From: Bryobacterales bacterium
Lineage (GTDB): Bacteria; Acidobacteriota; Terriglobia; Bryobacterales; Bryobacteraceae
Reading direction: 5' to 3'
Length of the DNA stretch: 33,250 nucleotides
Assembly (NCBI GenBank): GCA_003166865.1
Contig: PMUP01000085.1
Coordinates: 55,086 to 88,335, forward strand
How positions within the stretch are numbered: the first letter of the stretch is position 1; every line of letters starts with the position of its first letter. A program made the translations under genes and the position numbers. This document shows, one piece after another, positions 1 through 17,971 of the stretch. The notes below the pieces were generated by a model. The model saw only the letters and a list, made by a program, of their open reading frames with translations. It did not search any database and had not been told where the DNA came from.

Positions 1-177
1 GGCGCATCCGGCCACGTCTACGAACCGTACCTGCAATTCACCGCACGGCCCAATATTCTTCTGCCGGCTTACTATCACGGCCGCAATCTCGCGGAAAGCT
101 ACTACCTCGCGACTCCCATTCTGAGCTGGATGAACATCGTCATCGGCGATCCGCTGTGCAGTTTGGGAAAGCCGTGA
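1..177 (+). CDS. C-terminal end of a TIGR03790-like protein (partial)
   Basis: The first 58 codons read open from the window edge to a TGA and give the end of a longer protein. The tail carries RPNILLPAYYHGRNLAESYY followed by LSWMNIVIGDPLC, a pattern I associate with the C-terminus of TIGR03790 family proteins, which are of unknown function and frequent in Acidobacteria and Planctomycetes. The start and most of the protein lie outside the window, so neither length nor signal peptide can be judged. The next gene begins 34 bases downstream on the same strand. The family call is recognition from a short tail and is moderate. Confidence 0.6.
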   Translation, partial: GASGHVYEPYLQFTARPNILLPAYYHGRNLAESYYLATPILSWMNIVIGDPLCSLGKP

Positions 178-211
178 GCCGGGCCCGCGCTCTGAGGGAA
201 AATAGAAACAG

Positions 212-2116: not shown

Positions 2117-3360
2117 GCGATTTTCAGGAACAGCTCGCGCATCTGCGCCGGCGCATCGCCAAAATCGATAAGAAATTCTCGCGGCCCAATCCGCGTTCGC
2201 CAATCCCTAAACCCCAATCGCCAATCCCGGCTCCCGAGGATTGGCTGCATGGCGAAGAAATCCGAACGAAGCACGGCGTTCACTACGAAACCGAAAAACT
2301 CTACGAACGCCAGCGGCGGCATGGCAGCATCGGCATCGTGGATCTCGAGGACCTTCCGCAGGATCTGCTCGATCCCATCTCGAATGGTCAGATCCGCGGA
2401 GTTCCGCCCGCGAAGTGGTGCTTCCTCGATACGGAAACCACCGGTCTGGCGGGAGGTTCGGGCACCTACGCGTTTCTGGTCGGCGTGGGCCGCATTACGC
2501 CGCAAGGTTTTCGCGTGCGCCAGTTTTTCATGCGCGACTTTGGCGAAGAGGCCAGCCTGCTGAGCGCCCTGACCGAGCACCTGAAACAGTTCGAAGTGCT
2601 GATCACCTACAACGGCCGCACTTTCGATCAACCGCTGCTCGAAACGCGCTTCCGCATGGTGCGTCAACGGCCGCCGTTCAGCGCGCTGGAACATCTCGAC
2701 CTGCTATTCGGCGCGCGCCGGCTGTGGAACTTGCGATTCGACAGTTGCCGCCTGGTGGATCTGGAGAATCAAATCCTGGGCGTCGAACGGCAAGGCGATC
2801 TTCCCGGTGAAATGATTCCATATGTGTACTTCGAATACGTGCGGACGCGCGAGATCTTTCGCCTGATGCCGGTGTTTCATCACAACGCTATCGACATCCT
2901 GACTTTGGCGTGCCTGACCGCGATTGTTCCGCGGGCGTTTCATTCGCCGGAGCAAGCCGAATTTTCGCATGGCGCCGAAATGGTTGGCCTGGCTCGTTGG
3001 TGGCGGCAAGCTGAGCAGCACGAAAACGCGCTGGCACTTTTTCGACAAGCGATCGAGAAGAACCTCCCGGATGATCTGATGTTCCGCACGTTGTGGGACA
3101 TTGCGGCGCTCGAGAAAAAGCTCGGCCGCGAACATGCGGCGCTTGCAGTTTTGACCGATCTGGCCGCTTCGTGCAATCCTTGGCGCGGTGCTGCTTTCGT
3201 GGAACTCGCGAAATACTACGAACGCCGCGAACGCAATTACGCGCTGGCTCTGGAGATGACGCGGAGCGCAATGGAACTGGAGCCGTCCGAAGCGCTGGAG
3301 CGCCGGGCGGCCCGCTTGGAGAAACGCATGGGGACGCCCAAAACATCGAGGCTCATATGA
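2113..3360 (+). CDS. YprB-like ribonuclease H-fold exonuclease with TPR-like tail
   Basis: A 415-residue protein with a DEDD-type exonuclease core of the RNase_H_2 (PF13482, YprB) kind. Motif Exo I is FLDTETTG (104-111, D106 and E108). Exo II is YNGRTFDQP (166-174, D172). Exo III is HHNAIDILTL (256-265, D261). The region after about residue 285 is helical and TPR-like (ENALALFRQAIE and later repeats). The first 45 residues hold a short helix and then a Pro-rich linker made by a heptanucleotide repeat. I chose the ATG overlapping the ABC-F stop (ATGA); upstream in-frame codons run through the ABC-F gene in another frame and look like a shadow. Translational coupling to the ABC-F gene is likely. 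The substrate is unknown. Confidence 0.87.
   Translation: MSDFQEQLAHLRRRIAKIDKKFSRPNPRSPIPKPQSPIPAPEDWLHGEEIRTKHGVHYETEKLYERQRRHGSIGIVDLEDLPQDLLDPISNGQIRGVPPAKWCFLDTETTGLAGGSGTYAFLVGVGRITPQGFRVRQFFMRDFGEEASLLSALTEHLKQFEVLITYNGRTFDQPLLETRFRMVRQRPPFSALEHLDLLFGARRLWNLRFDSCRLVDLENQILGVERQGDLPGEMIPYVYFEYVRTREIFRLMPVFHHNAIDILTLACLTAIVPRAFHSPEQAEFSHGAEMVGLARWWRQAEQHENALALFRQAIEKNLPDDLMFRTLWDIAALEKKLGREHAALAVLTDLAASCNPWRGAAFVELAKYYERRERNYALALEMTRSAMELEPSEALERRAARLEKRMGTPKTSRLI
2186..2227 (+). repeat. Second heptanucleotide tract, six units
   Basis: Six 7-base units of the CCAATCC type: CCAATCC, a degenerate GCGTTCG, CCAATCC, CTAAACC, CCAATCG and CCAATCC. They code for a PNPRSPIPKPQSPIP linker between the N-terminal helix and the nuclease domain of the YprB-like protein. 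The tract is more diverged than the one in the upstream gene, so it is probably older or arose by a separate expansion. Confidence 0.85.
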
Positions 3361-5366: not shown

Positions 5367-5433
5367 TAGACCTCATTGTAGAACGGCGGAACGACGAGTT
5401 GCAGGTGGCTGGTGGGGCTGATCGCATTCGCTA

Positions 5434-5466
5434 TTGACAACATGATACCTTGTAGTGCAAGATATC
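5434..5466 (+). promoter_or_regulatory. padR promoter region with inverted-repeat operator
   Basis: TTGACA (5434-5439) is a perfect -35 hexamer. Ten bases on, GATACCTTG (5444-5452) and CAAGATATC (5458-5466) form an inverted repeat of 9-bp arms with one mismatch and a 5-bp centre. It covers the place where the -10 element and start of transcription must lie, ending 7 bases before the padR ATG. A PadR dimer binding here would repress its own operon. The hexamer and palindrome are seen; the regulator assignment is inference, and the -10 (perhaps CAAGAT) is poor. Confidence 0.6.
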
Positions 5467-5473
5467 TGTCGAG

Positions 5474-5848
5474 ATGAAGGCCACGCCCGCCCGCGATCAA
5501 GAAACTGTAGACAAGTGGGAAGTACAGCTCCGCAAAGGTTGTCTCGAGCTGGCCATCCTGGCTGCGTTGTGGGAGGGGAAACTCTATGGGCTCGAGATCT
5601 TGCGGCAGCTGGAGAGCGATTCCGATTTGATCGTATCGGAGGGTACCGTGTATCCGCTGCTCAGCCGGCTCAAGGTGCTGGGGCTGGTGAAAAGCGAGTG
5701 GGTGGAGTCGGAGGCCGGGCACCCGCGAAAATACTACGCGCTCACACCGGCTGGAAAAAAGCGGGCCCTGGAGATGGCTGGGATCTGGACGCGATTCTCG
5801 TCGAGCATGGGTAAGCTGCTCGCTCCACTTGGGAAGGGAAATAAATGA
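5474..5848 (+). CDS. PadR family transcriptional regulator
   Basis: A 124-residue winged-helix repressor. The core LRKGCLELAILAALWEGKLY at about 19-38, then GLEILRQLE, SEGTVYPLLSRLKVLGLVKSEW and HPRKYYALTPAGKK, is the PadR N-terminal domain with its recognition helix and wing. It lies first in a three-gene run with a HAAS-domain membrane protein (ATGA overlap) and a CPBP protease. PadR genes next to HAAS-domain genes are a known pairing in which the membrane partner is thought to take part in signalling. An inverted repeat immediately upstream suggests autoregulation. The effector is unknown. Confidence 0.93.
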   Translation: MKATPARDQETVDKWEVQLRKGCLELAILAALWEGKLYGLEILRQLESDSDLIVSEGTVYPLLSRLKVLGLVKSEWVESEAGHPRKYYALTPAGKKRALEMAGIWTRFSSSMGKLLAPLGKGNK

Positions 5849-6480
5849 CCATGGCCGACGACGTGCAGCAAAGAGACGCGCAACAAAGTATGGAAGCTTA
5901 TCTGGGCAGATTGCGCCGGCGGTTGCGCGGCATGAACGACGAAGACGCCCGTGAGATCGTGGAAGAACTGCGCAGCCACATCCGGGACAAGGCGGCCGCG
6001 AGCGGACAAGTGACGGCTTCTGGAGTTGACGCAGCACTGGCCGCGTTGGGTAGTCCGGAGGAGTTGGCCAGCCAGTACCTGACTGACGACCTGCTGGCGC
6101 GAGCGGAGGTCAGCCGGTCGCCAGTGCGGATCCTGGAGAGTCTATTCCGCTGGGCCAGCTTGAGCGTGGCCGGTTTTCTAGTGCTGCTGGGCTCCATGGT
6201 GGGATATTTCCTCGGGGTGGTTTTCATTCTTGTGGCCGCGCTGAAATCGTTTCATCCGCGGACCGCGGGAGTGTGGGTTCTTCCGAATGGCGCCGACGAC
6301 TTTAATATCTCTGTTCGACTTGGGTTTGGAAGCGCGCCCTTGGAAGGCAGAGAGGTGCTGGGCTGGTGGATTATGCCAATTGGACTGGCAGCCGGTTGTG
6401 CGCTGGTGATGTTGACCACGCGCTTTGCGATCTGGTGCGTTCGCCAGTACCGAAAATCGCGCGCGTTGCCGCGAGGGTAA
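5845..6480 (+). CDS. HAAS-domain (DUF1700-like) membrane protein
   Basis: A 211-residue protein. The N-terminal helical HAAS/DUF1700-like domain (about 14-85) shows YLGRLRRRLRGMNDEDAREI, then VEELRSHIRDK, and DAALAALGSPEELASQYL. Two membrane segments follow, about 105-134 and 171-195. The start overlaps the padR stop (ATGA) and has GGAAGGG about 6 bases upstream; a second in-frame ATG two codons later is also possible. The extramembrane loop between the segments (about 138-170) is unlike anything I recognise. Context suggests a membrane partner of the PadR regulator. Confidence 0.82.
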   Translation: MTMADDVQQRDAQQSMEAYLGRLRRRLRGMNDEDAREIVEELRSHIRDKAAASGQVTASGVDAALAALGSPEELASQYLTDDLLARAEVSRSPVRILESLFRWASLSVAGFLVLLGSMVGYFLGVVFILVAALKSFHPRTAGVWVLPNGADDFNISVRLGFGSAPLEGREVLGWWIMPIGLAAGCALVMLTTRFAIWCVRQYRKSRALPRG

Positions 6481-6482
6481 TA

Positions 6483-7145
6483 ATGCCAAACCTATCTCCC
6501 GCGCAGCGCTGGTTCTCCCTAGTCGAGCTCGTCGTGGGAAGCGCGATGGTCATCGCTCACAACGTCTATCACGTCATTCCCAACGAGGTGCCCATCCTGT
6601 TTGTAATGGGCCTGATTTCACTACGGCTGAGGGACGGCGGATGGACCGCCATGGGCTTGCGCTGGCCCGTCTCGTGGCGGCGAACCATCTTGTTCGCGCT
6701 GGCAACGGCCGCGCTGAGAATCCTGCTCAGTACTCTGGTGGTCGATCCGCTTACCGCGCGCTTCTGGCCTCCGGCAATCGCGCCCAGCGGCACCGACCAA
6801 ATCACGGGCCATGTGATGGTGGCGCTCCGCTGGCTTGGGATCGTTTGGACTTTTGCCGCTTTCGGGGAAGAGATCGGCTACCGGGGCTACCTGCTCAACC
6901 GCGCGGCAGACGTGGGCGGCCGATCCAAGGCTGCCTATTGGGCCGGCGTCTTGGTGGTCGCCGTGCTCTTCGGATATGGGCACTATTACAAGGGTCCATC
7001 GGGAATGGTCGACTCCGGCATGGCCGGCCTGCTGCTTGGAGGCGCCTATGTTTTGTCGGGACGCAACCTGTGGGTTTGCATTCTGGCCCACGGGTTCATC
7101 GACACGTTCGGAGTGACCGCCGCGTTCTTCGGGTGGGACTCATAG
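6483..7145 (+). CDS. CPBP family intramembrane glutamic endopeptidase
   Basis: A 220-residue multi-pass membrane protein of the CPBP (Abi, CAAX-protease-like) family. The three signature motifs are present: EEIGYRGYLLNR (E129, E130, R134), FGYGHYYKG (F163, H167) and HGFIDT (H203, D207). The glutamates and histidines form the catalytic site inside the membrane. The ATG lies two bases after the HAAS gene stop; upstream in-frame codons overlap that gene and are rejected as start. Position as third gene of the PadR run suggests co-regulation. The substrate is unknown; the family includes prenyl-protein proteases and bacteriocin-immunity proteins. Confidence 0.9.
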   Translation: MPNLSPAQRWFSLVELVVGSAMVIAHNVYHVIPNEVPILFVMGLISLRLRDGGWTAMGLRWPVSWRRTILFALATAALRILLSTLVVDPLTARFWPPAIAPSGTDQITGHVMVALRWLGIVWTFAAFGEEIGYRGYLLNRAADVGGRSKAAYWAGVLVVAVLFGYGHYYKGPSGMVDSGMAGLLLGGAYVLSGRNLWVCILAHGFIDTFGVTAAFFGWDS

Positions 7146-7163
7146 GTCGGACTTTTCGAAACT

Positions 7164-7277
7164 GGTCAGGGCAGCTTATTTCATTTTACGGTGCGCCTCC
7201 GCAATGCCATGGAAACGAACGGAAGCGGGGATGAAGGCGCAGCGCAGTGCGCATGGTCGGCGTCGAGTACAGTCTGA
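7164..7277 (+). pseudogene. Remnant of a histidine kinase C-terminus (left copy)
   Basis: Plus-strand codons give GQGSLFHFTVRL and then a short tail ending at TGA. This is the final strand of a HATPase_c domain (consensus GxGSxFxFxxxL). There is no start codon or preceding ATPase domain: the CPBP gene stops 19 bases upstream. The remnant is similar at base level to the one at 12648-12809 (shared stretches such as CATTT-ACGG-GCGCCT, GCCATG-AA-CGAACGGAA and GATGAAGG). It is the left part of a module repeated three times in this window. Confidence 0.75.
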
Positions 7278-7278
7278 G

Positions 7279-7443
7279 CTACTGGGCTTTTCTCTTCTAT
7301 TCGAGCGTCCGGCGCAGGATGCGCAGCGCGGGGTGGTCCTATTCGTCGGCTAGCTCTTCTTTGATCGCGATGAGCGTCTCCAGGTCAAGAACGCGGATGC
7401 GGAGGCCTTCACCAATGTCTAACTCGACAGAATGTGGGAGCAG
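7279..7443 (-). pseudogene. Nucleotidyltransferase C-terminal fragment, third copy
   Basis: The minus strand reads LLPHSVELDIGEGLRIRVLD, then LETLIAIKEELADE, an in-frame TAG, and a degraded RILRRTLE with another TAG. This matches the last 50 or so residues of the two nucleotidyltransferase copies at 12811-13951. The in-frame stops and the loss of the N-terminal two thirds, including the active site, make it a pseudogene. Homology stops at about 7443. The open frame could be read from an ATG at 7482, which lies two bases beyond the kinase gene stop, but its first 13 residues have no counterpart in the other copies. Confidence 0.83.
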
Positions 7444-7452
7444 GGAACGCGA

Positions 7453-7476
7453 GTTCAGGTATGTCTTTGCCTGAAC
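7453..7476 (-). terminator. Hairpin downstream of the kinase gene
   Basis: GTTCAGG (7453-7459) and CCTGAAC (7470-7476) form a perfect 7-bp stem with a 10-base loop. It starts 9 bases after the kinase stop codon. No run of U follows on the minus strand, so it is at best a weak terminator or an mRNA 3'-end structure. Confidence 0.4.
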
Positions 7477-7484
7477 CAGCATAG

Positions 7485-10085
7485 CTACCTCTTGGCGACC
7501 GTGTCCGCTAGCTCGGTTCGGAAGTGTGCCGCCTGGCTGGGCTGGTCTAAGGCTTCATAGATAGTGACCAGGTCTTTGCGCGCGGACTGCAGCCAACTGA
7601 CCGTCGGACTGGTTTGTTTCAGCAGAATGTTATATCCGGCGAGCGCTTGGCTTTCCGCTTCCGCATAGCGCTTCTCACCAGTGAGGGCGCGCCCCAGCTT
7701 GATTTGCGCAATCGCTCGAAACGGATGATTCGGTGAGAGCGTTTCCGCATATCGCCGGATCACTTCGCGGAACATCTGCTCGGCGCGGGCATAGTCCTTT
7801 TGCGCCAGATACACACTCGCCAGATTTGACAATGCCAAGGCGTATAGATAGTGGTGTTCGCCATAGGCGGCCTTGTAGATGTCAACCATGCGCTGGAATC
7901 GCGACGCAGCCTCGTCGAACTTGTCACGCTGCAATGCTATGGTCCCCAGCTCATTGAGTACGTTTGCGACCTTGGGATGCGACGCGCCATAGACACGTTC
8001 CTGGATCGCAAGCGCCTGTTCCACCAGATTCACGGCCTCGTCATAGCGGTGTTGAAAGACGAGAGAGCGGCCGAGCATCGATAACGTGGACGCGGTCTCC
8101 GGATGGTCGTGGCCGTACCAACTCTCGTTGATATCCAGCGCCTGCCGATACCGCTGCTCTGCCTCGACATAATGGCCGCGCTCAAACTGTACCGCGCCGA
8201 GGTTGATTAGATCGTCCGCAACCAACGGATGCTTACCACCCAATACTCGCCGGTGGATCGCCAGGCTGCGCTGGGTCAAATTGTCGCAGATGTCGTAGTG
8301 TCCCGCATAAAACTGCGCATCGGCCAACTCCTTTAGCGTGGCTGCCGTGTCGAGAGGATTGGAGCCCGGGCCGGACTCGAGCTTCACCGCTTCTTCCAGG
8401 ACGGGGATCGCTTTGTCATAGGAGCCCTTGGCCTCGAGAACCTTTCCGAGTGCTGCCGTGGCCTTGGCAACCGCCCGATCATCGCGCGGCCGTGCTTGCG
8501 TCGCGTTCGTCAGCCCTTGGCGAATGAGGCGCTCGGCGTCTTCCAATCGCGCCTGGTCCACACGAAGTAAGCCGAGTGCGACCGTGCTTTCCGCAACCAG
8601 ACTCTCCGGATTGTGCGGTGCTAGCGCCGCATTTAGCAGCATGTCAGCTTGCGGCAGATTGCCGAGCTTCTGTTCAATGCCGCCCAGCGTGAGATAGAGC
8701 TCCGTCTGCAGTTCCGGCTCTCCCTGGAGCGTCTGCGCCTCCTTGATACCGCGGTCGATAAGGGTCGCCGCCTTCAACCCTTCGGCGGGTCCGGCAGATT
8801 TGTCGCCACCCGAGAACAGATTCAGCATAAACTGCTGCACGCGCTCCATCCGGGCGACTGCCGCGACGGCAGTGTTCCGGGTAGTCGCAAGCCGTACCGT
8901 AAAAAACACGATGAGCGCTGCCACAGCGGCGGTTGCCAGGGCGGTAGCGGCGACAGCCCGCCGGTTTCGTCTTACAAACTTGCCGAGCCGGTAGCGCCAT
9001 GTGTCGGGCCGCGCTTCCAGGGGCTCGCCCGCCAGGTAGTGGTCAATATCTCGGATCAACGCTTCGGTCGATCTGTAGCGCCTTTCCGCGTCCTTGCGAA
9101 TAGCGGTGAGGCAGAGCACGTCGAGATCGGCCCACGCTGAAGCGCGCTGACGGCCTGCCACCGATGGCTTCTCCGGCTCCTGCTCCACGATGATGCGCTC
9201 GGCTTCGGCGGGCGTCCTATTCGAAAGGTCAAACGGAGCGCAGCCGGCCAGAAGCTCATATAGGATCACACCCAGCGCGTACACATCCGTGAATACGCCG
9301 ACCCGCTCGCCGCGGAGTTGCTCGGGGGCCGCATAGGCGGGCGTCATGAGCCGCAATTCAGTCCGCGTTTGTTGCACCGCCTGACCGAGATCGTCCAGCT
9401 GCTTCGAGATGCCAAAGTCGAGCAGGCCGATGGCGCCGTCGGACCTCACCAGGATGTTCGAGGGCTTCAAGTCGCGGTGAATGATCGCATGCCCGTGCGC
9501 GTACTGCACGGCTTCACAGACGGATCGAAACAGCCGCAGCCGCTGTTCGATCGAGCCGTCCTGCATACGGCAGTATTCGGTGATCGGGACGCCCTCGACA
9601 TACTCCATGACGAACCAGGGCGTGCCGTCCGGTAGCGTATCGGCATCGTAGAGCCGCGCAATGGACGGATGATTCAATTGCGCTAGCGTGCGCTGCTCGG
9701 TGGCGAATCGTTCCCGGCGAGCGGGTGAGAGCCAGGCATCGCGCAGTATCTTGATGGCCACCAGGCTGCCCAGATCAGCGCGCTCGGCGAGGAACACCAC
9801 ACCCATGCCGCCTTCGCCGAGCATTCGCAGAAGGCGATACGGGCCGAGCTCCTTCGGAAGGTGCGAGTCCGGAAACTCGCTCAGGATGTTCCGAGCCACC
9901 TGCGACAAGTCGCCGTCGAGCAGCGAACCGCCGTGCGCATCCTCCTGGAGCATGGCCAGCACTTCGGCGCGGAGCGCGCCGTCGTCACCACAGGCGGTTT
10001 CGAGGAACGGCCGGCGCTCGGTCTCGGGGAGGTCCGCCGCCTCAAGAAAGAGGCCTTGAATTTGCTTGAGCCTCGCGGTGTCCAT
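7485..10085 (-). CDS. Membrane serine/threonine protein kinase with TPR sensor region
   Basis: An 866-residue Hanks-type kinase. The N-terminal 80 residues are the leader usual in acidobacterial kinases of this kind (LKQIQGLFLEAADLPETERR). The kinase domain runs about 83-350: P-loop GEGGMGVV (90-97), K112, catalytic HRDLKPSN (203-210), DFG (223-225) and APE (253-255). One membrane helix lies at about 377-398. The rest (about 430-860) is tetratricopeptide repeats (for example EQRYRQALDINESWYGHDHP and EQALAIQERVYGASHPKVAN), probably outside the membrane. The ATG follows the sigma gene stop by 12 bases, with AGGG about 10 bases upstream. Pairing with an ECF-like sigma factor suggests phosphorylation-linked control. 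Confidence 0.94.
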   Translation of the reverse strand: MDTARLKQIQGLFLEAADLPETERRPFLETACGDDGALRAEVLAMLQEDAHGGSLLDGDLSQVARNILSEFPDSHLPKELGPYRLLRMLGEGGMGVVFLAERADLGSLVAIKILRDAWLSPARRERFATEQRTLAQLNHPSIARLYDADTLPDGTPWFVMEYVEGVPITEYCRMQDGSIEQRLRLFRSVCEAVQYAHGHAIIHRDLKPSNILVRSDGAIGLLDFGISKQLDDLGQAVQQTRTELRLMTPAYAAPEQLRGERVGVFTDVYALGVILYELLAGCAPFDLSNRTPAEAERIIVEQEPEKPSVAGRQRASAWADLDVLCLTAIRKDAERRYRSTEALIRDIDHYLAGEPLEARPDTWRYRLGKFVRRNRRAVAATALATAAVAALIVFFTVRLATTRNTAVAAVARMERVQQFMLNLFSGGDKSAGPAEGLKAATLIDRGIKEAQTLQGEPELQTELYLTLGGIEQKLGNLPQADMLLNAALAPHNPESLVAESTVALGLLRVDQARLEDAERLIRQGLTNATQARPRDDRAVAKATAALGKVLEAKGSYDKAIPVLEEAVKLESGPGSNPLDTAATLKELADAQFYAGHYDICDNLTQRSLAIHRRVLGGKHPLVADDLINLGAVQFERGHYVEAEQRYRQALDINESWYGHDHPETASTLSMLGRSLVFQHRYDEAVNLVEQALAIQERVYGASHPKVANVLNELGTIALQRDKFDEAASRFQRMVDIYKAAYGEHHYLYALALSNLASVYLAQKDYARAEQMFREVIRRYAETLSPNHPFRAIAQIKLGRALTGEKRYAEAESQALAGYNILLKQTSPTVSWLQSARKDLVTIYEALDQPSQAAHFRTELADTVAKR

Positions 10086-10097
10086 TGTGTTCGGCCC

Positions 10098-10679
10098 TCA
10101 TTGACGCAATCGGTGTTTCAACCAGGCCTTGGCGGCTCTCCACTCCCGATGTACTGTGGCCTCGGAAACTTCCAGCAGCTCCGCGGTTTCCAGCACGTCC
10201 AGCCCTCCAAAGAAACGGCTCTCCACCAACATGGCCTGGCGAGGTTCCAACTGCTCCAGCTCCTGCAGGGCCTCGTCGAGCGCCAACAGCTCCTGGCCTC
10301 CAAACGCTATTTCCGTGACCGCAAGATCTACGCCGGCGAAGATCACTTGGCCGCCACGCTTGCCCGCGTTACGGCGTCTGGCCGCTTCGATCAGGACCTG
10401 TCGCATGGCGCGGGCGGCAATCCGCTTGAAATGCAAAGGCGAGGTGGTCTCAAAAGGCGGGGATTTCACCAGCTTCAGCCAGGCTTCATTCACCAGTGCG
10501 GTCGGATTCAGTGTGGAACTGGCGTCGTTCCTTTTGACGGTGGATGCAAGGCGCCGCAGTTCCTCGTAGGTGACGCTAAACAAATAGTCGAGGGTCTGTT
10601 TCTCGGCTTTTGATCCGGGCTCGTGATCCCGCATGACAGTTTCTGAGGGCTTTTCGCGCAATGCGTTGGTGAAGGTCAT
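10098..10679 (-). CDS. ECF-like RNA polymerase sigma factor (TIGR02999 type)
   Basis: A 193-residue sigma factor. Region 2 reads LDYLFSVTYEELRRLAS, TLNPTALVNEAWLKLVKS and HFKRIAARAMRQVLIEAARR. Region 4 is EALQELEQLEPRQAMLVESR, then VLETAELLEVSEATVHREWR. The ALVNEAWLKL and RRRNAGKRGG stretches fit the TIGR02999 ECF-like family often found next to kinases. I chose the ATG at 10679, which has AGGA upstream. A reading 34 codons longer would overlap the divergent gene's coding start and begins with residues unlike the family. No anti-sigma gene is present; the downstream kinase may take that control role (inference). Confidence 0.9.
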   Translation of the reverse strand: MTFTNALREKPSETVMRDHEPGSKAEKQTLDYLFSVTYEELRRLASTVKRNDASSTLNPTALVNEAWLKLVKSPPFETTSPLHFKRIAARAMRQVLIEAARRRNAGKRGGQVIFAGVDLAVTEIAFGGQELLALDEALQELEQLEPRQAMLVESRFFGGLDVLETAELLEVSEATVHREWRAAKAWLKHRLRQ

Positions 10680-10704
10680 TATATCGTCCTGAGGAGGCCG
10701 TCCA

Positions 10705-12543
10705 ATGAAACACCGTTCAGCACAGTCTTTGATTCTTTTCCTGCTTGCGCTGGGAACCAGCCTCGAAGCCGCTTCCACCATCTACGTGGCCACGGACCTG
10801 GGACCCTACAAAAGCACCGATAGCGGCGCCACTTGGGCACAGCTCATTGTGAAGGTGAGTAATCCGCTTGCTCAGTCGGGCCCTCCGGACGTGCAGGTGA
10901 TTGCAGTCGATCCGCTCGATCCTTCCACCGTGTATTTCGACGGTGGCGGCGGCGCTTTCTATGCATCAACAGATGGCGGCCAGACTTGGTCGGCGCTAGT
11001 GCTAGTGGGCTACACTCTGGTGGGCGGGCTCGCCATCGACCCCGTGAAGACCAACGTCATCTATTCGCTGGCTAACCCGACTAACGGGGAAAATGTCATC
11101 TTGAAGAGTACCGATGCCGGGGCCACGTGGACTCCGACCACACAAATTCAAGGGCCCGGCGGCGCGATCCATGTTGTGCAAATCACCACGGATTCTTCCA
11201 CCTATGGAGTTTTGTATGCCGTAGGCGAAGAGCGCATCTTCAAGACCACCGACTTTGGGAACACCTGGAGCCAGATTGCTAGCCACGCATCTACCGAAGC
11301 AGCGATACAAGGCGTTTACCCAGATCCCAGCCACAGCCAAGTCCTCTATGCTGCTTCCAGCGCGGCCAACTGCGGCGGCCCACCGAACGAAGCCGTATGT
11401 GGGCTGCTCAAGACCTCCAATGGAGGTGCGACTTGGGCGCAACTCAGCGGGCTTGCGAGCAATACCGTTTTCAGCGTCGCCTTTGATACCTCTTCCGGCG
11501 CCATTTACGCTGGAGCAGTGGTGACCGGCCTGGGAGTCACCGTCGTAAAGAGCACAGACGGAGGCAATACCTGGACGCCGGTTTATAACCAGTTCAACGC
11601 CGGCAGCGATGGCACGATGCTTGTCGCGGTCGACCCCAACATCAATTCCACTGTCTATGCGCTCGGGGGTGGCTTCTGGACATCGACCGATAGCGGCGCG
11701 AGTTGGTCCGATGTCCAACTTCCCCCTGGCTGCGACGCCTACGTGAAGGGGTGCGCCGAAGTCATCGTTAGTGCCAACAATTTCGTGGTGGCGACTGCGG
11801 CACCAGTTCCACCGCCGCCACCCAGCATCTCGGCCTCGGGCGTCGTCAATGGCGCCAGCTTCCAGCCAGGCATCGTTCCCAATTCCTGGGTGACGATCGG
11901 CGGAACCAATCTCGCCTCCACAACCGGCAATTGGGCCAACGCGATCGTCAACGGAAGATTCCCCGTCGCGCTGGATGGCGTCAGTGTGACCATCGGCGGC
12001 AAGCCAGCATACATCAATTTCATCTCACCCCGCCAGATCAACCTGGTGGCCCCAGACGTTGGATTCGGATCGCTCCCGGTGACTGTCACCACTTCGGGAG
12101 GAACCAGCGCCGCGTTCATGGTGACGTCGAGCGAATACGGCCCGGCGTTTTTCCAATGGCCCGACAGCCAGCCCATCGCCACGCGGCTAAACTACAGTGA
12201 TGTGGTCAAGAACGGGACGTTCCCCGGCGTCAGCACCGTGCCCGCCAAGCCCGGCGAGGTGATTGTTCTCTGGGGCACCGGGTTCGGACCGACCAACCCC
12301 GTCGCTACTTCCGGCGTTCCCGTCCCGAGTGGCGTAACGTACTCGACCACAGCCTTAACCACCGTCACCATCAAAGATGTTCCCGCAACCGTGTACGGCG
12401 CGGCTCTTGCAGCCGGCTTCGCTGGTCTGTACCAAGTCGCGATCCAGGTTCCGAACTCGATCCCCGACGGCGACTGGCCGATTCAGGCCACCATCGGGGG
12501 CGTAAAATCGCCAACCGGTATCGTCCTGACAGTCCATGAATAG
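10705..12543 (+). CDS. Secreted Asp-box (sortilin/BNR-like) protein with Solibacter C-terminal domain
   Basis: A 612-residue secreted protein with a signal peptide (1 to about 23, ending SLEAA). A beta-propeller-like region carries seven Asp-box motifs of the S-T/S-D-x-G-x-T-W kind: KSTDSGATW (36-44), ASTDGGQTW, KSTDAGATW, KTTDFGNTW, KTSNGGATW, KSTDGGNTW (282-290) and TSTDSGASW (326-334). A Pro-rich hinge (368-373) leads to a domain matching TIGR03437 (VVNGASFQPGIVPNSWVTI, LWGTGFGPTNP, GLYQVAIQVPN). The RBS GAGGAG lies 8 bases before the ATG. It diverges from the sigma gene with 25 bp between start codons, so each promoter probably lies in the other gene. Its ligand is unknown. Confidence 0.9.
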   Translation: MKHRSAQSLILFLLALGTSLEAASTIYVATDLGPYKSTDSGATWAQLIVKVSNPLAQSGPPDVQVIAVDPLDPSTVYFDGGGGAFYASTDGGQTWSALVLVGYTLVGGLAIDPVKTNVIYSLANPTNGENVILKSTDAGATWTPTTQIQGPGGAIHVVQITTDSSTYGVLYAVGEERIFKTTDFGNTWSQIASHASTEAAIQGVYPDPSHSQVLYAASSAANCGGPPNEAVCGLLKTSNGGATWAQLSGLASNTVFSVAFDTSSGAIYAGAVVTGLGVTVVKSTDGGNTWTPVYNQFNAGSDGTMLVAVDPNINSTVYALGGGFWTSTDSGASWSDVQLPPGCDAYVKGCAEVIVSANNFVVATAAPVPPPPPSISASGVVNGASFQPGIVPNSWVTIGGTNLASTTGNWANAIVNGRFPVALDGVSVTIGGKPAYINFISPRQINLVAPDVGFGSLPVTVTTSGGTSAAFMVTSSEYGPAFFQWPDSQPIATRLNYSDVVKNGTFPGVSTVPAKPGEVIVLWGTGFGPTNPVATSGVPVPSGVTYSTTALTTVTIKDVPATVYGAALAAGFAGLYQVAIQVPNSIPDGDWPIQATIGGVKSPTGIVLTVHE

Positions 12544-12552
12544 TTCTCGTAC

Positions 12553-12573
12553 GTTCGGGCATTCAATTCGCGA
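12553..12573 (-). pseudogene. Residual start of a nucleotidyltransferase copy
   Basis: These 21 bases match 13942-13962 exactly. That stretch contains the start codon and first three codons of the intact nucleotidyltransferase and the last codons (RELNAR) of the small gene before it. Here the coding match ends within four codons of the ATG, and the Asp-box gene stop lies nine bases away. It is read as the surviving 5' edge of the copy whose C-terminal part lies at 7279-7443. Confidence 0.65.
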
Positions 12574-12647
12574 TTGGAGAATGTCTCCAGTGTGTTTCGA
12601 ATTACCAATCGCGCACCGCCTCAAAGCGTTCGCTGCCCCAGTTATTG

Positions 12648-12809
12648 TATGGTCTGGCGGTGGAGATGCTTGGCGGCCGAATCTGGGTGGAAAGCGAAAT
12701 TGGCAAGGGCAGCGCATTTCATTTCACGGCGCGCCTTGGCAAGGCCATGCAAGCGAACGGAACCGGGATGAAGGTGAAGCCCGCATGGTCTCCATCGGGT
12801 AAAGTCTGA
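12648..12809 (+). pseudogene. Remnant of a histidine kinase C-terminus (right copy)
   Basis: Plus-strand codons read YGLAVEMLGGRIWVESEIGK, then GSAFHFTARLGKAMQANG and a tail to TGA. GGRIWVESEIGKGSAFHF is the G2-box end of a HATPase_c domain of a hybrid or PAS-type sensor kinase. The normal GLGLAIxxxLVE segment is shortened to GLAVE, showing an internal deletion. No start codon or upstream kinase domain is present. The stop is one base from the stop of the opposing nucleotidyltransferase, the same arrangement as at 7164-7279. Confidence 0.8.
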
Positions 12810-12810
12810 T

Positions 12811-13347
12811 CTACCGAGCTTTTCTCTTCTCTTCGAGTCTCTTCTCTTCGAGCGTCCGGCGCAGGATGGGCAGTACGGCGCGGTCCTTCTCGCCGGCTAC
12901 CTGTTCCCTGATAGCAATGCTCATTTCCAGGCCAAGAACGCGGAGGCGGAGTCCCTTACCGACCTCCAACTCGACGGAGTGTGGGAGCAGGTCCTCGTAG
13001 CTAAGATCGCGGCCGATCGTTCCGAGCAGGTCCAGAGGGCCATGCTGCGTGATCAGGTTCTGCTGGCCGTGGGAAGCGAGATGACTCGCGGTGGGTTTCT
13101 TGCGCAGGTAGGGCTGGGGGCGATAGACTGCGTCCAGAGTTTCCAGCACCCCCAGAAGGCGAGCGATATTGGCCGTGTCGCGGGAGTGGACCACATCGAT
13201 GTCACCGACGAGTACGGGAGCTCCGTTCAAGAACTCGGCGCAACTGCCCACTAGAATGGAATCGACACGAGCGTCTTGCAGCTCGCGCAGATGAGAACAG
13301 TGTCCTGCGCCTAGGCGGGTGGCTGTTGGCTTGTGGTTCAGTAGCAT
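12811..13347 (-). CDS. MNT-fold nucleotidyltransferase, copy A (diverged)
   Basis: A 178-residue protein similar along its length to copy B. The nucleotidyltransferase signature is ILVGSCAEFLNGAPVLVGDI, followed by DVVHSRD: G34-S35, then D49-x-D51. The second half has HGPLDLLGTIGRDLSYEDLL and VLPILRRTLEEKR. The N-terminal 25 residues differ from copy B, and the second Gly of GG is Ser, which the family tolerates. The C-terminus ends EEKRLEEKRKAR because a 15-base unit (12823-12837) is duplicated exactly at 12838-12852. The 54-codon partner gene is missing upstream. Function is unknown; similar enzymes occur in defence and toxin-antitoxin loci (DUF6036-like is my nearest guess). It may be decaying. 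Confidence 0.7.
   Translation of the reverse strand: MLLNHKPTATRLGAGHCSHLRELQDARVDSILVGSCAEFLNGAPVLVGDIDVVHSRDTANIARLLGVLETLDAVYRPQPYLRKKPTASHLASHGQQNLITQHGPLDLLGTIGRDLSYEDLLPHSVELEVGKGLRLRVLGLEMSIAIREQVAGEKDRAVLPILRRTLEEKRLEEKRKAR
12823..12852. repeat. 15-bp perfect tandem duplication at the end of copy A
   Basis: TCTCTTCTCTTCGAG occurs twice back to back and adds five residues (RLEEK) to the C-terminus of nucleotidyltransferase copy A. The duplication is in frame. The corresponding ends of copy B and of the left fragment have only one unit, so this is a change specific to copy A. Confidence 0.92.
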
Positions 13348-13379
13348 AACAGCGAAGAATAGCCTAAGAAAAAGCTACC

Positions 13380-13456
13380 GCTCATCAATGGCGCGTGCAA
13401 ACCGATGAGCCTGAAAGGCAAAACCGAAGGGGGAAAGCTGTGATTACCGCAGCTTT
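13380..13456. repeat. Two inverted repeats between nucleotidyltransferase copies
   Basis: GCTCATC (13380-13386) pairs with GATGAGC (13404-13410), and AAAGCTG (13434-13440) pairs with CAGCTTT (13450-13456). Both stems are 7 bp and perfect. They lie in the 115 bp between the stop of copy B and the start of copy A, both on the minus strand. The second could form at the 3' end of the copy B transcript, but C rather than U follows. Their role is unknown. Confidence 0.45.
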
Positions 13457-13462
13457 GCTGGA

Positions 13463-13951
13463 CTAACGCCTGCGCTTCTCTTCGAGTGTCCGGCGCAAAA
13501 TGGGCAGCATGGCGCGGTCCTTCTCGCCGCCAAGCTCTTCCTTGATCGCGATGAGCGTTTCGAGGTCGAGAACGCGGATGCGGAGGTTTTCACTAATGTC
13601 CAACTCGACGGCGTGTGGGATCAAGTCCTGGTAGCTAAGATCGCGGCCGATCGTTCCGAGCAGGTCCATAGGGCCATGCCGCGTGATCAGATTTAGATGG
13701 CCGGCGGAAGCGAGATGACTCGCGTTTGGTCTAAGCCGCCGCTCGGGCTGGATTCGGAAGACCGCGTCCAGGGCTTCCAGCACGGAGAGGATGCGAGCGA
13801 CATTGGCAGCGTCGCGGGAGTGGACCACATCAATATCGAAGGTGCTCACGGGAGCGCCGTTCACGGCAGCGGCTAGCCCGCCCACCAGGATGAACTCGAC
13901 ACCGCCGTCATGCAAGGCGCGCAAGGTCGCGGTGAACTTATGTTCGGGCAT
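13463..13951 (-). CDS. MNT-fold nucleotidyltransferase, copy B (intact)
   Basis: A 162-residue protein. The active-site motif is ILVGGLAAAVNGAPVSTFDI, then DVVHSRD: G24-G25 followed by D39-x-D41, the hG[GS]...DxD pattern of DNA polymerase beta-type nucleotidyltransferases. Later parts include HLNLITRHGPMDLLGTIGRD, RIRVLDLETLIAIKEELGGE and KDRAMLPILRRTLEEKR. The start codon lies inside the end of a 54-codon gene (14-base overlap), so the two are probably translated together. The protein may transfer nucleotides to a protein or RNA target, as in toxin-antitoxin nucleotidyltransferases, but no target is evident. A nearby diverged copy and two fragments show the module has been duplicated here. 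Confidence 0.8.
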   Translation of the reverse strand: MPEHKFTATLRALHDGGVEFILVGGLAAAVNGAPVSTFDIDVVHSRDAANVARILSVLEALDAVFRIQPERRLRPNASHLASAGHLNLITRHGPMDLLGTIGRDLSYQDLIPHAVELDISENLRIRVLDLETLIAIKEELGGEKDRAMLPILRRTLEEKRRR

Positions 13952-14102
13952 TCAATTCGCGAATGGAAATTATGTCGTTCACGTGCTGTTCGAGGAATTC
14001 GAGACGCTGGGCCGGTGTGAGCGAGAGCATCCAGCGGATCAAGGTCAGGTCTACGCCGTCGGGGCTGTAGTCCGTGAGACGAGGCTGATCGTCGATCGCC
14101 AT
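13938..14102 (-). CDS. 54-aa partner protein of nucleotidyltransferase copy B
   Basis: A short gene from ATG (14102) to TAA giving 54 residues. The centre reads DLTLIRWMLSLTPAQRLEFL and the end is VNDIISIRELNART. The first half is acidic and polar (MAIDDQPRLTDYSPDGVDLT); the second half looks like two short helices. It precedes the nucleotidyltransferase and overlaps it by 14 bases in another frame, a typical arrangement for a two-gene toxin-antitoxin-like unit. A trace of its last codons survives at 12553-12573, beside the trace of another nucleotidyltransferase start, so the pair was copied together. I recall similar LSLTPAxRL proteins beside such enzymes, but no function is known to me. 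No clear ribosome site is visible. Confidence 0.72.
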   Translation of the reverse strand: MAIDDQPRLTDYSPDGVDLTLIRWMLSLTPAQRLEFLEQHVNDIISIRELNART

Positions 14103-14141
14103 AACAACAACCAGCATAGCCGGTAAAATAGAATGGCTCTA

Positions 14142-14212
14142 CTGTGTTCCGAATTACCAACCCTGGACGAATTGAGAGCGTCCTGTATCCCAGTTATTGT
14201 ATGGTTTGGCGG
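14142..14212 (+). repeat. Third trace of the repeated module flank
   Basis: Two stretches match the region before the right kinase remnant. 14142-14160 corresponds to 12590-12608 (CGAATTACCAA core with one difference before it), and 14190-14212 corresponds to 12638-12660 (CCAGTTATTGTATGG, then TTTGGCGG in place of TCTGGCGG). The sequence between them is only loosely similar. Codons then read YGLA before running into a stop, so only the edge of the kinase remnant is kept. The rest of the gap up to the SMC gene holds nothing I recognise. Confidence 0.7.
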
Positions 14213-14294
14213 GCGCCCGCAAGATATAGTGAAAGACCCGCTTTACTTTCGAGGCAAGGCCGGTTACCATAGACCCATCCCCCGAGACGATAAT

Positions 14295-14303
14295 AGGAAG
14301 GGG
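14295..14303 (+). promoter_or_regulatory. Ribosome binding site deciding the TTG start of smc
   Basis: AGGAAGGGG ends 8 bases before the TTG at 14312. The next in-frame ATG (residue 21) would remove LKLKRVEIQGFKSF, the conserved first strand of SMC ATPases, so TTG is the right start. Confidence 0.8.
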
Positions 14304-14311
14304 ACCGTATT

Positions 14312-17300
14312 TTGCTGAAGCTCAAGCGGGTTGAAATACAGGGCTTTAAGTCCTTCTTTGATCGAACCGAGATGAAGTTTCCCGGTTCGGGAATCGCGGC
14401 CATCGTTGGACCGAACGGCTGCGGAAAATCCAACCTCAGCGATGCCATGAGCTGGGTGTTGGGCGAGCAGTCGGCCAAAATCCTGCGCGGGACCAGGATG
14501 GAGGATGTCATCTTCGCCGGGACGCGCGACCGGAAGCCGCTGGGGCTGGCGTCCGTCACGATGACCCTGGTGGACCCGGCGGCCGAGGCCGAGCATTCCG
14601 ATGTCTCTGCCAACGGCAACGGTCACGCGTCCCACAAACCAAGCGAAGTCACCATCACGCGGCGGCTGTTCCGGTCGGGCGAGAGCGAATACCTCATTGA
14701 CGGCAAACTAGCACGATTGCGCGACATCCAAGACCTCTTCATCGGCACGGGCTTGGGGCCCGAAAGCTACGCGATCATCGAGCAGGGGCGCATCGGGCAG
14801 ATCCTGAGCAACAAGCCGCAGGACCGGCGGGCGATCATCGAAGAAGCGGCCGGCATCGGCAAATTCAAAACCAAGAAGCGGCTGGCGGAAGCCAAGCTGG
14901 AGGGCGCGAAACAGAATCTATCGCGCGTGTTCGACATTCTGGAAGAGGTCGGGCGGCAGGCGAATTCGTTGAAGCGCCAGGCGTCCAAGGCGCGGCGCTA
15001 TGAAGAATTGAAGGGCGAGATGATCGCGCATCTGCGCGGGTCGCTGACGGCGCGCTACCGGATGCTGGAGCGGGATGCGGCGAAGACGGCGCTGGATTTG
15101 AACTTGGCGAGCGCCGAGTTCCATAGCGTGTCCTCGCAGGTGACGGAGCGCGAGCAGGAACACAGCGCGCTGCAAGAGGCATGCTATCGCAACGACGCGG
15201 AGCTGGCGGAGGCGCGGCGCCGGCTGGCTGATTTCCAGCTTGAGCAAGAGCGGACGCGAGGGCGGCTGGATTCACAGGCGCAGCAGATCGGTGCGATGGA
15301 GCAGCGGCTCGGGCAGGGCGAATCGGAATCGCGGGAGTTGGAACAGCGGCACCAGCAAATGCGTCAGGAACTGGAAGCGCATCTGCGATCGGTGGTGGAG
15401 CTGGAGGCCGGGATCGAAGCGGCGCGGGAGCGCTTGGCAGCCAAGGCAGCGGAGCGAGAACAGCTTCAACAGGCGTTGCAGCAGCGCGCGGGGACCATCG
15501 AGACGGGGCGGCAGAACGTGCTCCGATTGCTGGGCGAATCGTCGGCGCTGAAGAACCAGTTGGTGCAGATCGGCGAATATCTTTCCGCGATCGATCGCGA
15601 TGCGGCGCGGTGCCAGCGCGATGAGCAAACGGCCACGGCGGATTTGGAGCGGCACGCGGTGGTGAAGGCCGAACTGTCGCGCAGGATGTCGGCGGGGCAG
15701 ATGGAGCTGGAGTCCACCTCTGACCGGAAGCGGCGGGTGGAAGAAGAGCTGGGGACGCGCAAGACGCAGGCGGCGGAAGCCCGCAAGACGCTGGATCATT
15801 TGCGGGCCGATGCGTCGCGGTTGAAGGCGCGTAAAGATTCGCTGGAAGAGATTTTGTCGCATCGCGCGTATACGGCCGAGAGCGTGAAGCGGTTGTTCAC
15901 TGCCATCGCGCGCGACGAAGCGGAGGGTTTTCACGCGGCGGGCGTGCTGGCGGACTTCGTGGACGTGGAGCCGGCGTACGAGAAAGCCGCCGAAGATTTT
16001 CTGCACGAAGAGCTGGAATACGTGGTGGTCGAGAACTGGAACGAGGCCGAGCGCGGAATCGACATCATGCGCGCGGATCTGGACGGGCGTGCGACGTTCC
16101 TGGTGCATCCGGAGGCCGGCCAACAAGCGCGGGCGCTGGACACGCTGGGGAGCGCTGAAGGCGTGGTCGGCCGGTTGAGCGATCATCTTCGGTTTACCAA
16201 CGGGTTTGCATCCGCGCCGCGGGATTTACTGCCCCGGCTGGCGCATTGTTTTCTGGCTAAGGATCGCTCGGCGGCGCAGAAGCTGGCGACCGAGCATCCG
16301 GAGTTTTTCTTCCTGTTGCCGGATGGCGTGAGCTATCACGGGCACGCCGTGAGCGGCGGCAAGAAGACGGGCACGGGTCCGCTGGCGCTGAAGCGCGAAT
16401 TGCGCGAGCTGACCGGAGAAGTACAAGTGAAGCAGCGCGCGGTAGACGCGACGGCGGCGGCACTGGAGCACCTGGATCGTGAGATCGCGGGGTTCAGCGA
16501 GGATTTGGAGAGCTTACGGTCATTGCAGCAAAACCAGGAGAAAGAGGCGCTGGCCCTGGATCACGAGCACCGGCAGTTGGCCGAGGAATTCGCGCGGGCG
16601 CAAACCCGATTGTCGGTGGCGCGCCTGGAGCTGGAGCGCTTGCGCCAAGAAGGCAGCCGGGCGCGGGAGCAGCAGGAGCGCGATCAGCAGTTGCTGGATG
16701 AACGCGAAACAGCGCGATCGATTGAAGAGCAGGTGTTGGAGCAATCCCGCGCGGATTTCGAAGAGCTGCAATCGCAGACGCACCGCTTGGTGGAAGAGCA
16801 CGGCGCGTTGCGGGCGGAACTCGCGGGGTTTGAAGAACGGCAGCGTTCCGAGCGCGCCACCCAGGCGCGGCATGAGACGGGTATTCGAGCGGCGGTGGCT
16901 CGCAGGCAGGAGATCGCGGCGGAGATGGAGCGTCTGGGAGTGGAGCGGGCGCGGCTGTTGTCGGACAATATCGAATTGGACCGTCGCGCGGGCGAGTTGC
17001 TGGAAGCGATTTCCGCCGCCGAGGGATTCGTGGCGGAGTTGGCTGCCAGGGAGACCACGCAGCGGACCAATCTTGCGGCCCTGGATGAAGCGCTGAAGCA
17101 ACTGCGTGTGAATGTACAGGCGGCGCAGGAGCGGCGATCGCAGATCGAGCTGGAGCTGGTGCGCAAGCAAGCCGAGCTCAAGTATCTGGACGAGACCAGC
17201 CGCAAAGAACTGGGCCTGCCGGCCGAGGAGTTGTCGGCGGGCGAAGAGGCCGTGCTGGACGAAGCCGGGTTGGCCGAGGCCGAGCAAAAATATCAGGAAG

Positions 17301-17971
17301 TGAAAGCGCGGATTGAAGCGTTGGGGCCGGTGAATCCGCAAGCGCTCGAAGAATTCCAAGAAGCGCAGCAGCGCTACGATTTCCTGAACGCGCAGCGGCA
17401 GGATTTGTTGGATTCCATCCGCGACACCGAGAAGGCGATTCACGAGATCGACGTCGAGTCGCGAAAGCGGTTCTCAGACGCGTTCGAGGCGGTGAACGGC
17501 TTCTTCCGCGAGATGTTCCGGACGCTGTTTGGAGGCGGTACCGGGGAGATGCGCCTGACCGATGAGACCAACCTCGCCGAATCCGGCATCGACATTGTGG
17601 CATCGCCTCCGGGCAAGCGTCTGCAAAACGTGTTGCTGTTGTCGGGCGGCGAGAAATCGCTGACGGCCATGGCGCTGCTAATGGCGATTTTCCGCTACAC
17701 GCCGAGCCCGTTCTGCATTCTCGACGAAGTGGACGCGCCGCTGGACGAGCCGAACATCGAACGGCTGACGCGCCTGCTGAAGGAGATGTCGGCCGAGACG
17801 CAGTTCATCGTGATTACGCACGCCAAGCGCACTATGGAAGCCGCGCAGTCTCTGTACGGGGTCACGATGCAGGAACCAGGCGTCTCGAAACTGGTTTCGG
17901 TGCGATTTGGGCAGGATGCGCAGCCTCCCATGCCGGTTGCAGAACTGGCGATGCACGGCGCGGCGAGCTAA
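14312..17971 (+). CDS. smc: Chromosome segregation protein SMC
   Basis: A 1219-residue SMC protein, the ATPase that with ScpA and ScpB organises and separates chromosomes. The N-terminal head has Walker A GPNGCGKSN (33-41). Long coiled coils (about 170-510 and 690-1025) flank a hinge at about 520-680 (HAAGVLADFVDVEPAYEKAA, then DLDGRATFLVHPE). The C-terminal head has signature LSGGEKSLTAMALLMAIF (from residue 1110) and Walker B FCILDEVDAPLDE (D1138, E1139), followed by QFIVITHAKRTMEAA. The start is TTG with a strong ribosome site. ScpA and ScpB genes are not in the window. The stop overlaps the stop of the opposing amidohydrolase by 3 bases. Upstream lies the decayed nucleotidyltransferase module, so its promoter region may be recent. 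Confidence 0.96.
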   Translation: MLKLKRVEIQGFKSFFDRTEMKFPGSGIAAIVGPNGCGKSNLSDAMSWVLGEQSAKILRGTRMEDVIFAGTRDRKPLGLASVTMTLVDPAAEAEHSDVSANGNGHASHKPSEVTITRRLFRSGESEYLIDGKLARLRDIQDLFIGTGLGPESYAIIEQGRIGQILSNKPQDRRAIIEEAAGIGKFKTKKRLAEAKLEGAKQNLSRVFDILEEVGRQANSLKRQASKARRYEELKGEMIAHLRGSLTARYRMLERDAAKTALDLNLASAEFHSVSSQVTEREQEHSALQEACYRNDAELAEARRRLADFQLEQERTRGRLDSQAQQIGAMEQRLGQGESESRELEQRHQQMRQELEAHLRSVVELEAGIEAARERLAAKAAEREQLQQALQQRAGTIETGRQNVLRLLGESSALKNQLVQIGEYLSAIDRDAARCQRDEQTATADLERHAVVKAELSRRMSAGQMELESTSDRKRRVEEELGTRKTQAAEARKTLDHLRADASRLKARKDSLEEILSHRAYTAESVKRLFTAIARDEAEGFHAAGVLADFVDVEPAYEKAAEDFLHEELEYVVVENWNEAERGIDIMRADLDGRATFLVHPEAGQQARALDTLGSAEGVVGRLSDHLRFTNGFASAPRDLLPRLAHCFLAKDRSAAQKLATEHPEFFFLLPDGVSYHGHAVSGGKKTGTGPLALKRELRELTGEVQVKQRAVDATAAALEHLDREIAGFSEDLESLRSLQQNQEKEALALDHEHRQLAEEFARAQTRLSVARLELERLRQEGSRAREQQERDQQLLDERETARSIEEQVLEQSRADFEELQSQTHRLVEEHGALRAELAGFEERQRSERATQARHETGIRAAVARRQEIAAEMERLGVERARLLSDNIELDRRAGELLEAISAAEGFVAELAARETTQRTNLAALDEALKQLRVNVQAAQERRSQIELELVRKQAELKYLDETSRKELGLPAEELSAGEEAVLDEAGLAEAEQKYQEVKARIEALGPVNPQALEEFQEAQQRYDFLNAQRQDLLDSIRDTEKAIHEIDVESRKRFSDAFEAVNGFFREMFRTLFGGGTGEMRLTDETNLAESGIDIVASPPGKRLQNVLLLSGGEKSLTAMALLMAIFRYTPSPFCILDEVDAPLDEPNIERLTRLLKEMSAETQFIVITHAKRTMEAAQSLYGVTMQEPGVSKLVSVRFGQDAQPPMPVAELAMHGAAS

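Follow-up and report, generated by a model that had tools for sequence, protein, structure and literature searches.

A kinase, ECF sigma factor and Asp-box gene block between remnants of a decayed nucleotidyltransferase array beside smc in a Bryobacterales genome

Results

Gene content of the locus

We analysed a 33,250-bp stretch of a draft Bryobacterales genome (6.67 Mb in 107 contigs; contig PMUP01000085.1, positions 55,086 to 88,335), which we refer to as the window and within which all coordinates are given. The features of the locus are listed below, where NT is nucleotidyltransferase, HK is histidine kinase, NT-A is the NT copy on the smc side, and NT-B is the NT copy of unit 2.

5373-14235, no strand: lineage-specific stretch bounded by a conserved flank with peptidoglycan-binding and alanine-dehydrogenase genes and, on the other side, by the conserved smc promoter region
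6483-7145, plus: CPBP-family membrane protease (Pfam PF02517, 65.6 bits)
7146-7278, plus: HK tail remnant of unit 1, alignable from 7157 (shuffle control)
7279-7444, minus: NT C-terminal remnant of unit 1, with two in-frame TAG codons
7485-10085, minus: Ser/Thr protein kinase with TPR repeats (Pkinase 153.9 bits, TPR_12 240.8 bits)
10098-10781, minus: ECF sigma factor of the TIGR02999 subfamily (168.7 bits, cut-off 126.15; PF07638 140.2 bits)
10705-12543, plus: divergent Asp-box/Vps10-like protein with a TIGR03437 C-terminal domain (189.2 bits, cut-off 29.05)
12550-12578, minus: first NT codons and start region of unit 1, identical to 13939-13967 at 27 of 29 positions (0 of 500 shuffles)
12578-12660, minus: upstream flank of unit 1, 76% identical to 14130-14212, ending abruptly at the unit 2 HK tail
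12661-12809, plus: HK tail remnant of unit 2, open to its stop, with 64% amino-acid identity to a hybrid histidine kinase encoded elsewhere in this genome (42 residues aligned)
12811-13347, minus: NT-B of unit 2, an open frame with altered N-terminus and no partner gene, 68% amino-acid identity to NT-A
13430-13459, plus: possible HK stop-region remnant left of NT-A (unit 3), a weak match whose score 8 of 500 shuffles reach
13463-13951, minus: NT-A of unit 3, an intact nucleotidyltransferase (29-sequence profile vs. TM1012)
13938-14102, minus: 54-aa partner gene of unit 3, overlapping the NT-A start and found beside NT genes elsewhere
14130-14212, minus: upstream flank of unit 3, aligned to 12578-12660
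14312-17971, plus: smc, the conserved right neighbour (SMC_N 222.4 bits; 75-80% amino-acid identity in four congeners over the parts present)

The block comprises the kinase, sigma and Asp-box genes. HRD and DFG motifs, as well as a transmembrane stretch, were recognised by eye in the kinase translation. The sigma factor contains both region 2 and region 4 (Sigma70_r4_2, 33.9 bits), lies on the same strand as the kinase and 12 bp from it as listed, and probably starts downstream of the listed ORF start. A first-pass annotation of this DNA had placed the block edges almost at the kinase and Asp-box stop codons, and this is what we find: the stops are at 7485-7487 and 12541-12543, array matches end at 7444 and resume at 12550, and both block edges lie at most 41 bp from a stop codon. 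The GC content of the block is 0.57-0.65, the same as that of its surroundings, and the block looks like ordinary host DNA; a foreign origin by composition, for which GC was the property compared, was rejected. Many PADLOC kinase models match the kinase (best PD-T4-6, E 5.8e-66), but these matches reflect the shared kinase domain, and assignment to a defence system was likewise rejected. A search of the literature library used here found nothing on TIGR03437.

Decayed tandem units on both sides of the block

The block lies between pieces of an array of decayed tandem units, each consisting of HK tail, NT, 50-aa partner and flank. Two units are certain and a third is tentative, and both genes are kept only on the smc side (13463-14102). 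On the left of the block, 7157-7444, which contains HK tail and NT C-terminus, matches 12695-12991 at 75% identity over 303 columns. Inside this match the HK tail at 7157-7278 aligns to 12695-12810, and comparison of the HK tails at 7146-7278 and 12661-12811 gives a score of 66, vs. a best score of 15 in 500 shuffles, which bears out the earlier report of direct HK-tail copies flanking the block. The NT C-terminal piece reported left of the block is also genuine: minus-strand 7291-7444 shares 81-83% identity with the 3' ends of NT-B (12838-12991) and NT-A (13472-13625).

On the right of the block, the 21-bp match to the NT start that the first-pass annotation had noted is exact (12553-12573 = 13942-13962), and none of 500 mononucleotide shuffles reaches its local score. 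The right-hand piece then runs on, in a segment that the first pass missed, as a copy of 14130-14212 (12578-12660; its score of 43 compares with at most 14 in 500 shuffles), and 13968-14129, comprising most of the partner gene, is therefore absent from it. Because the flank meets an HK tail at 12660/12661 but the smc upstream region at 14212, position 12660/12661 appears to be the joint of a tandem duplication of the HK tail, NT, partner and flank unit. A 12-bp match of 7474-7485 to the partner upstream region was discarded as not significant (31 of 500 shuffles).

In the same genome the NT protein has three matches, itself included, all at the locus, and the HK-tail/flank segment has five, itself included, four of them at the locus and the fifth comprising 83 bp inside a hybrid histidine kinase gene on another contig. 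With own-genome matches almost all local, the possibility that the NT and HK pieces represent a common genome-wide repeat, which the first-pass annotation had set as a ground for rejecting its own reading of the right-hand match, is ruled out.

NT-A and NT-B differ with dN 0.22 and dS 0.40 (dN/dS 0.55), vs. dN/dS 0.12 and dS 1.9-2.0 for NT-A compared with two other genomes (dS 1.93 for congener G001). From these values we infer that the NT duplication is younger than the split from G001, yet old, and that constraint has been relaxed. At sites where both outgroup genomes agree, nine amino-acid changes fall on NT-A and 12 on NT-B. A run of 38 identical bases shared by NT-B (12997-13034) and NT-A (13631-13668), vs. 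78% identity overall, may reflect gene conversion.

A lineage-specific stretch at a synteny breakpoint

The lineage-specific stretch is 8.9 kb long, lies at a synteny breakpoint and contains both array and block. On the left flank, genes for an ABC protein, an RNase H-like protein, alanine dehydrogenase and a peptidoglycan-binding protein keep their order in G001, and the alanine-dehydrogenase and peptidoglycan-binding genes occur together in all four congeners (G001-G004). On the right flank, similarity upstream of smc begins at 14236 in three congeners and at 14275 in the fourth, and an amidohydrolase gene (19167-20423) is linked to smc in G001, G002 and G003. Between 5373 and 14296, ORFs of at least 110 codons have no match in six loci of the four congeners (E ≤ 1e-15), and the 5' side of smc is unlike the window in all four (0.7, 11.9, 18.6 and 6.8 kb read in G001-G004, respectively), with G002 and G003 having genes 5' of smc in common. 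The CPBP gene is the last gene of a PadR (5474-5848), HAAS (5845-6480) and CPBP run (matches to PF03551 and PF22564), and 25 other genomes contain no match to it (E ≤ 1e-20).

At the block position none of the four congeners is syntenic and no empty or pre-insertion site was found, and neither an intact NT nor CPBP is joined across this position in any genome examined. A search of genome contigs with the full-length SMC protein, aimed at finding closer relatives, gave seven loci: four on contigs of the known congeners and three more distant ones (58-64%). 

The smc region shows further rearrangement among the congeners. In G002 and G003, smc and the amidohydrolase gene are joined, inverted, to the left flank (window 1-3324 and 14236-20400), which marks a rearrangement breakpoint beside smc. 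G003 also carries a transposase gene of the ISXO2-like (IS1595) type, 0.4 kb away from where smc begins (L068 1797-2789).

The kinase-sigma pair in related genomes

At E ≤ 1e-40 the sigma factor has matches in five of 25 other genomes, namely three of the four congeners and two other family members. Kinase-sigma pairs were found at six other loci (L084, L085, L086, L087, L092 and L093), counting a paralogue on contig C58 of the same genome; sigma matches in this genome also occur on contigs C78 and C18. NT, partner and HK tail were absent by tblastn (E ≤ 1e-3) from all six loci, three of which (L085, L092 and L093) are cut short where their contigs end. In G001, G002 and G003 the pair sits at other loci with no NT or HK pieces nearby, a finding that the first-pass annotation had itself named as contradicting its tie between the cassette and the module pieces.

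A divergent TIGR03437-domain gene lies about 1 kb or less from the sigma gene in three of the six loci (L084, L085 and L086) and 6 kb away in L087; none is present in the 1.5-1.8 kb available at L092 and L093. In G001 the kinase gene is followed by the sigma gene, then by two further TIGR03437 genes and the Asp-box gene, and the left neighbour is a GMC oxidoreductase gene (named by eye) with a counterpart on contig C12 of the genome studied here, where the 19 kb read around it contain no kinase. These order and neighbour data indicate that the kinase-sigma pair is placed differently in different species. In one more genome, G018 (L095), an NT pair lies at most 3 kb from a distant kinase (35% amino-acid identity), beside a TIGR03437 domain.

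A sequence of about 46 bp at L084 2880-2925 recurs at eight places in the genome studied here with 90-96% identity and is probably a dispersed repeat. One dispersed repeat from other loci has no match in the window.

The NT and partner genes across the family

NT-A is matched in 82 of 237 family genomes, its own included (E ≤ 1e-8, distant NTs counted), a patchy distribution. The partner, of about 50 aa, adjoins the NT in 32 of 33 loci of other genomes, these loci being the stronger NT matches with weaker ones outside the count, and the two genes therefore form a genuine pair. Compared with PDB, a profile built from 29 NTs hits the nucleotidyltransferase TM1012 (three entries; E 2e-5, residues 7-54), which identifies, by sequence only, the minimal NT fold of MntA-HepT toxin-antitoxin systems. 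The 54-aa partner has no match in Pfam or PADLOC, and the HEPN partner of MntA-HepT (type VII) was not recognised in it. At E ≤ 0.01, DUF6036 matches 17, DUF2204 12 and Aminoglyc_resit 6 of the 29 NTs, and NT-A on its own scores below the DUF6036 cut-off. The pair has no NCBIfam or PADLOC match, and a search of the literature library used here found nothing on DUF6036 with nucleotidyltransferase.

Two-gene modules with an MNT-type nucleotidyltransferase are toxin-antitoxin-like. The pair described here resembles such modules in its minimal NT with a small adjacent gene, in its patchy distribution and in its decayed copies, but differs from them in that its partner has about 50 aa, no Pfam match and no HEPN domain.

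NT copies are decayed in other genomes as well. In G045, from another genus, the partner-NT pair occurs in tandem (L129 1547-3276): 1547-1909 aligns to 2575-2960 at 82% identity over 386 columns, 1907-1969 then aligns to 3218-3276 at 76%, and the NT of the first copy is gone from codon 73 on. This two-part alignment indicates that the first copy lost the remainder of its NT by one internal deletion, and this independent tandem copy with an internal deletion therefore shows that the NT decay pattern recurs. This parallel to the decayed unit of the window carries no cargo. In G024 (L097 8431-8766) the partner forms an in-frame fusion with NT codons 109-162 and the catalytic half is absent, and two further loci (L128 and L130) contain a partner and a truncated NT, adding to the decay by internal deletion.

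Among 26 NT-module loci (319 kb), chosen mostly for strong NT matches so that split copies are under-represented, no NT is split by cargo; of these loci, L096 is truncated where its contig stops, and L097 is without the first NT half. The idea that NT modules are preferred sites for kinase, sigma and TIGR03437 genes was rejected: the 26 loci contain two kinase, one sigma and three TIGR03437 occurrences, vs. one, two and two in 13 control loci (206 kb; half as many loci and two thirds the length), where control locus L087 had itself been fetched as a kinase locus. A candidate hot spot at NT codons 102-104 (contig ends at L096 6215, the L098 start and the L127 start; G007 and G222) was dropped because two G007 contig ends continue, by eye, as one gene.

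Tests for mobility of the block

No transposase or integrase was found by Pfam among the 18 ORFs of the block and its neighbours, in agreement with the earlier statement that no transposase is visible. Comparison of the edges at 7430-7520 and 12520-12600 for shared repeats, a test that would miss very short target duplications, yields nothing above chance level, the scores being reached by 563 of 1000 shuffles for direct repeats and 757 of 1000 for inverted repeats. Long near-identical direct repeats are absent: the flanking copies are 75% identical, and their longest identical run is 22 bp. Nothing found shows mobility, and interpretation of the block as a mobile cassette is not supported.

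Discussion

Origin of the arrangement

On balance, we think it probable that the locus is a mosaic at a breakpoint, produced by duplication, decay and placement of the block in the outermost decayed unit, with the block having a switch role. An NT-partner pair beside a histidine-kinase 3' end would have been duplicated in tandem, with the joint at 12660/12661; every copy except the one on the smc side would then have decayed; and the kinase, ECF sigma and Asp-box unit may have landed in the outermost decayed unit via rearrangement or illegitimate recombination, an event that would have left whole genes intact, with the exception of the NT. The underlying observation of the first-pass annotation, that the NT pieces have the order and orientation of one unit with the block where the NT middle belongs, is confirmed. 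Its further proposal, that the block sits inside an NT gene, stands in part: both gene ends are present, but the arrangement is not a simple insertion into a single gene, the pieces being parts of an old tandem array that itself lies within a larger lineage-specific stretch. Because no empty site was found, we infer, rather than read, insertion into an NT unit, and the block could instead predate decay of the array. Also weighing against the mosaic reading are the weakness of the HK remnant of unit 3, with 8 of 500 shuffles reaching its score, and the occurrence of a transposase gene 5' of smc in one congener (the ISXO2-like gene at L068).

It is rather unlikely, in our estimation, that no insertion took place, and that the pieces are instead ends of different decayed copies, the block being an original neighbour against which deletions brought them. 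In favour of this reading, the left piece has its HK-to-NT link in common with NT-B, the right piece resembles NT-A in start and flank and is without a partner gene, and several genomes show NTs decayed through internal deletion. Against it, the pieces are ordered and oriented exactly as in a single unit, and both block edges are close to stop codons.

The first-pass annotation had gone further and proposed a signalling cassette that enters and leaves by homologous recombination between the flanking HK-tail/NT direct repeats, an interpretation that is only partly supported. Genuine direct repeats flank the block, its edges lie at stop codons, the kinase-sigma pair occupies differing loci in congeners, and in G018 an NT pair and a kinase are near neighbours beside a TIGR03437 domain. 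However, repeats of such low identity, with so short an identical run, argue against mobilisation by the repeats, as do the absence of NT, partner and HK-tail matches at the six other kinase-sigma loci, three of them contig-end-limited, and the absence of a cargo-split NT in the 26 other loci, whose selection mostly for strong NT matches disfavours split ones. We consider this origin very unlikely. That repeats at both block edges of a draft genome in many contigs produced a chimeric contig is scarcely credible, since the copies differ by 17-25%, which exceeds what short-read assemblers usually confuse, and open genes run cleanly up to the joints.

A possible kinase-activated sigma switch

The mosaic reading that we favour includes a function for the block. 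Judged from its genes and motifs, the block would most likely act as an ECF switch, activated by the kinase, that controls the divergent secreted protein: the membrane kinase would sense through its TPR part, would phosphorylate the sigma factor at Thr94, in the NPTA motif where a normal ECF sigma factor has an acidic DAED motif, and the activated sigma factor would transcribe the divergent secreted Asp-box gene as its putative target. The window sigma factor reads NPTA-LVNEAW where DAED would stand, with the place set by eye, and Thr94 is invariant in all seven aligned sigma sequences, its position opposite DAED likewise judged by eye. A phmmer search of the sigma factor against PDB gave no matches.

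ECF43, ECF59, ECF60 and EcfP are kinase-regulated ECF sigma factors whose mechanism has been described (PMC8103513). The block resembles these systems in having an ECF gene beside a Ser/Thr kinase gene, and may also share with them uncharged residues, here NPTA, in place of DAED with an invariant threonine; it differs from them in the TPR repeats of its kinase and in its divergent TIGR03437 gene. Gene order in relatives speaks partly for and partly against the switch. A divergent TIGR03437-domain gene close to the sigma gene at L084, L085 and L086 favours it. Against it, the sigma and Asp-box genes of G001 are separated by two further TIGR03437 genes, in L087 the TIGR03437 gene is 6 kb off, and in the short loci L092 and L093 none is seen.

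Wider meaning

Large Solibacter-type genomes (Ellin6076) are described as containing numerous paralogues of kinases and sigma factors alongside old duplications (PMC3174227). The locus resembles such genomes in its TIGR03437 'Solibacter C-terminal' protein and differs from them in being a single local array beside smc, with no mobile-element gene in 18 ORFs; it fits the ordinary picture of paralogue-rich Solibacter-type genomes. A bolder possibility, which we regard as doubtful, is that the NT and its 50-aa partner are an uncharacterised toxin-antitoxin-like pair that undergoes repeated tandem duplication and catalytic loss, as seen at this locus and independently in G045, with one in-frame fusion in G024, and that its dead copies beside smc would provide a tolerant landing ground for host regulatory units, the kinase-sigma block among them.

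The locus illustrates the decay of a tandem small-gene pair at a breakpoint, and illustrates that an intact regulatory unit can sit amid decayed copies without transposase signs of its own. It also provides two leads: a conserved pair of an NT and a 50-aa partner for which the searched libraries contain no curated family, and a kinase, ECF and TIGR03437 unit that offers a testable role for one TIGR03437 protein.
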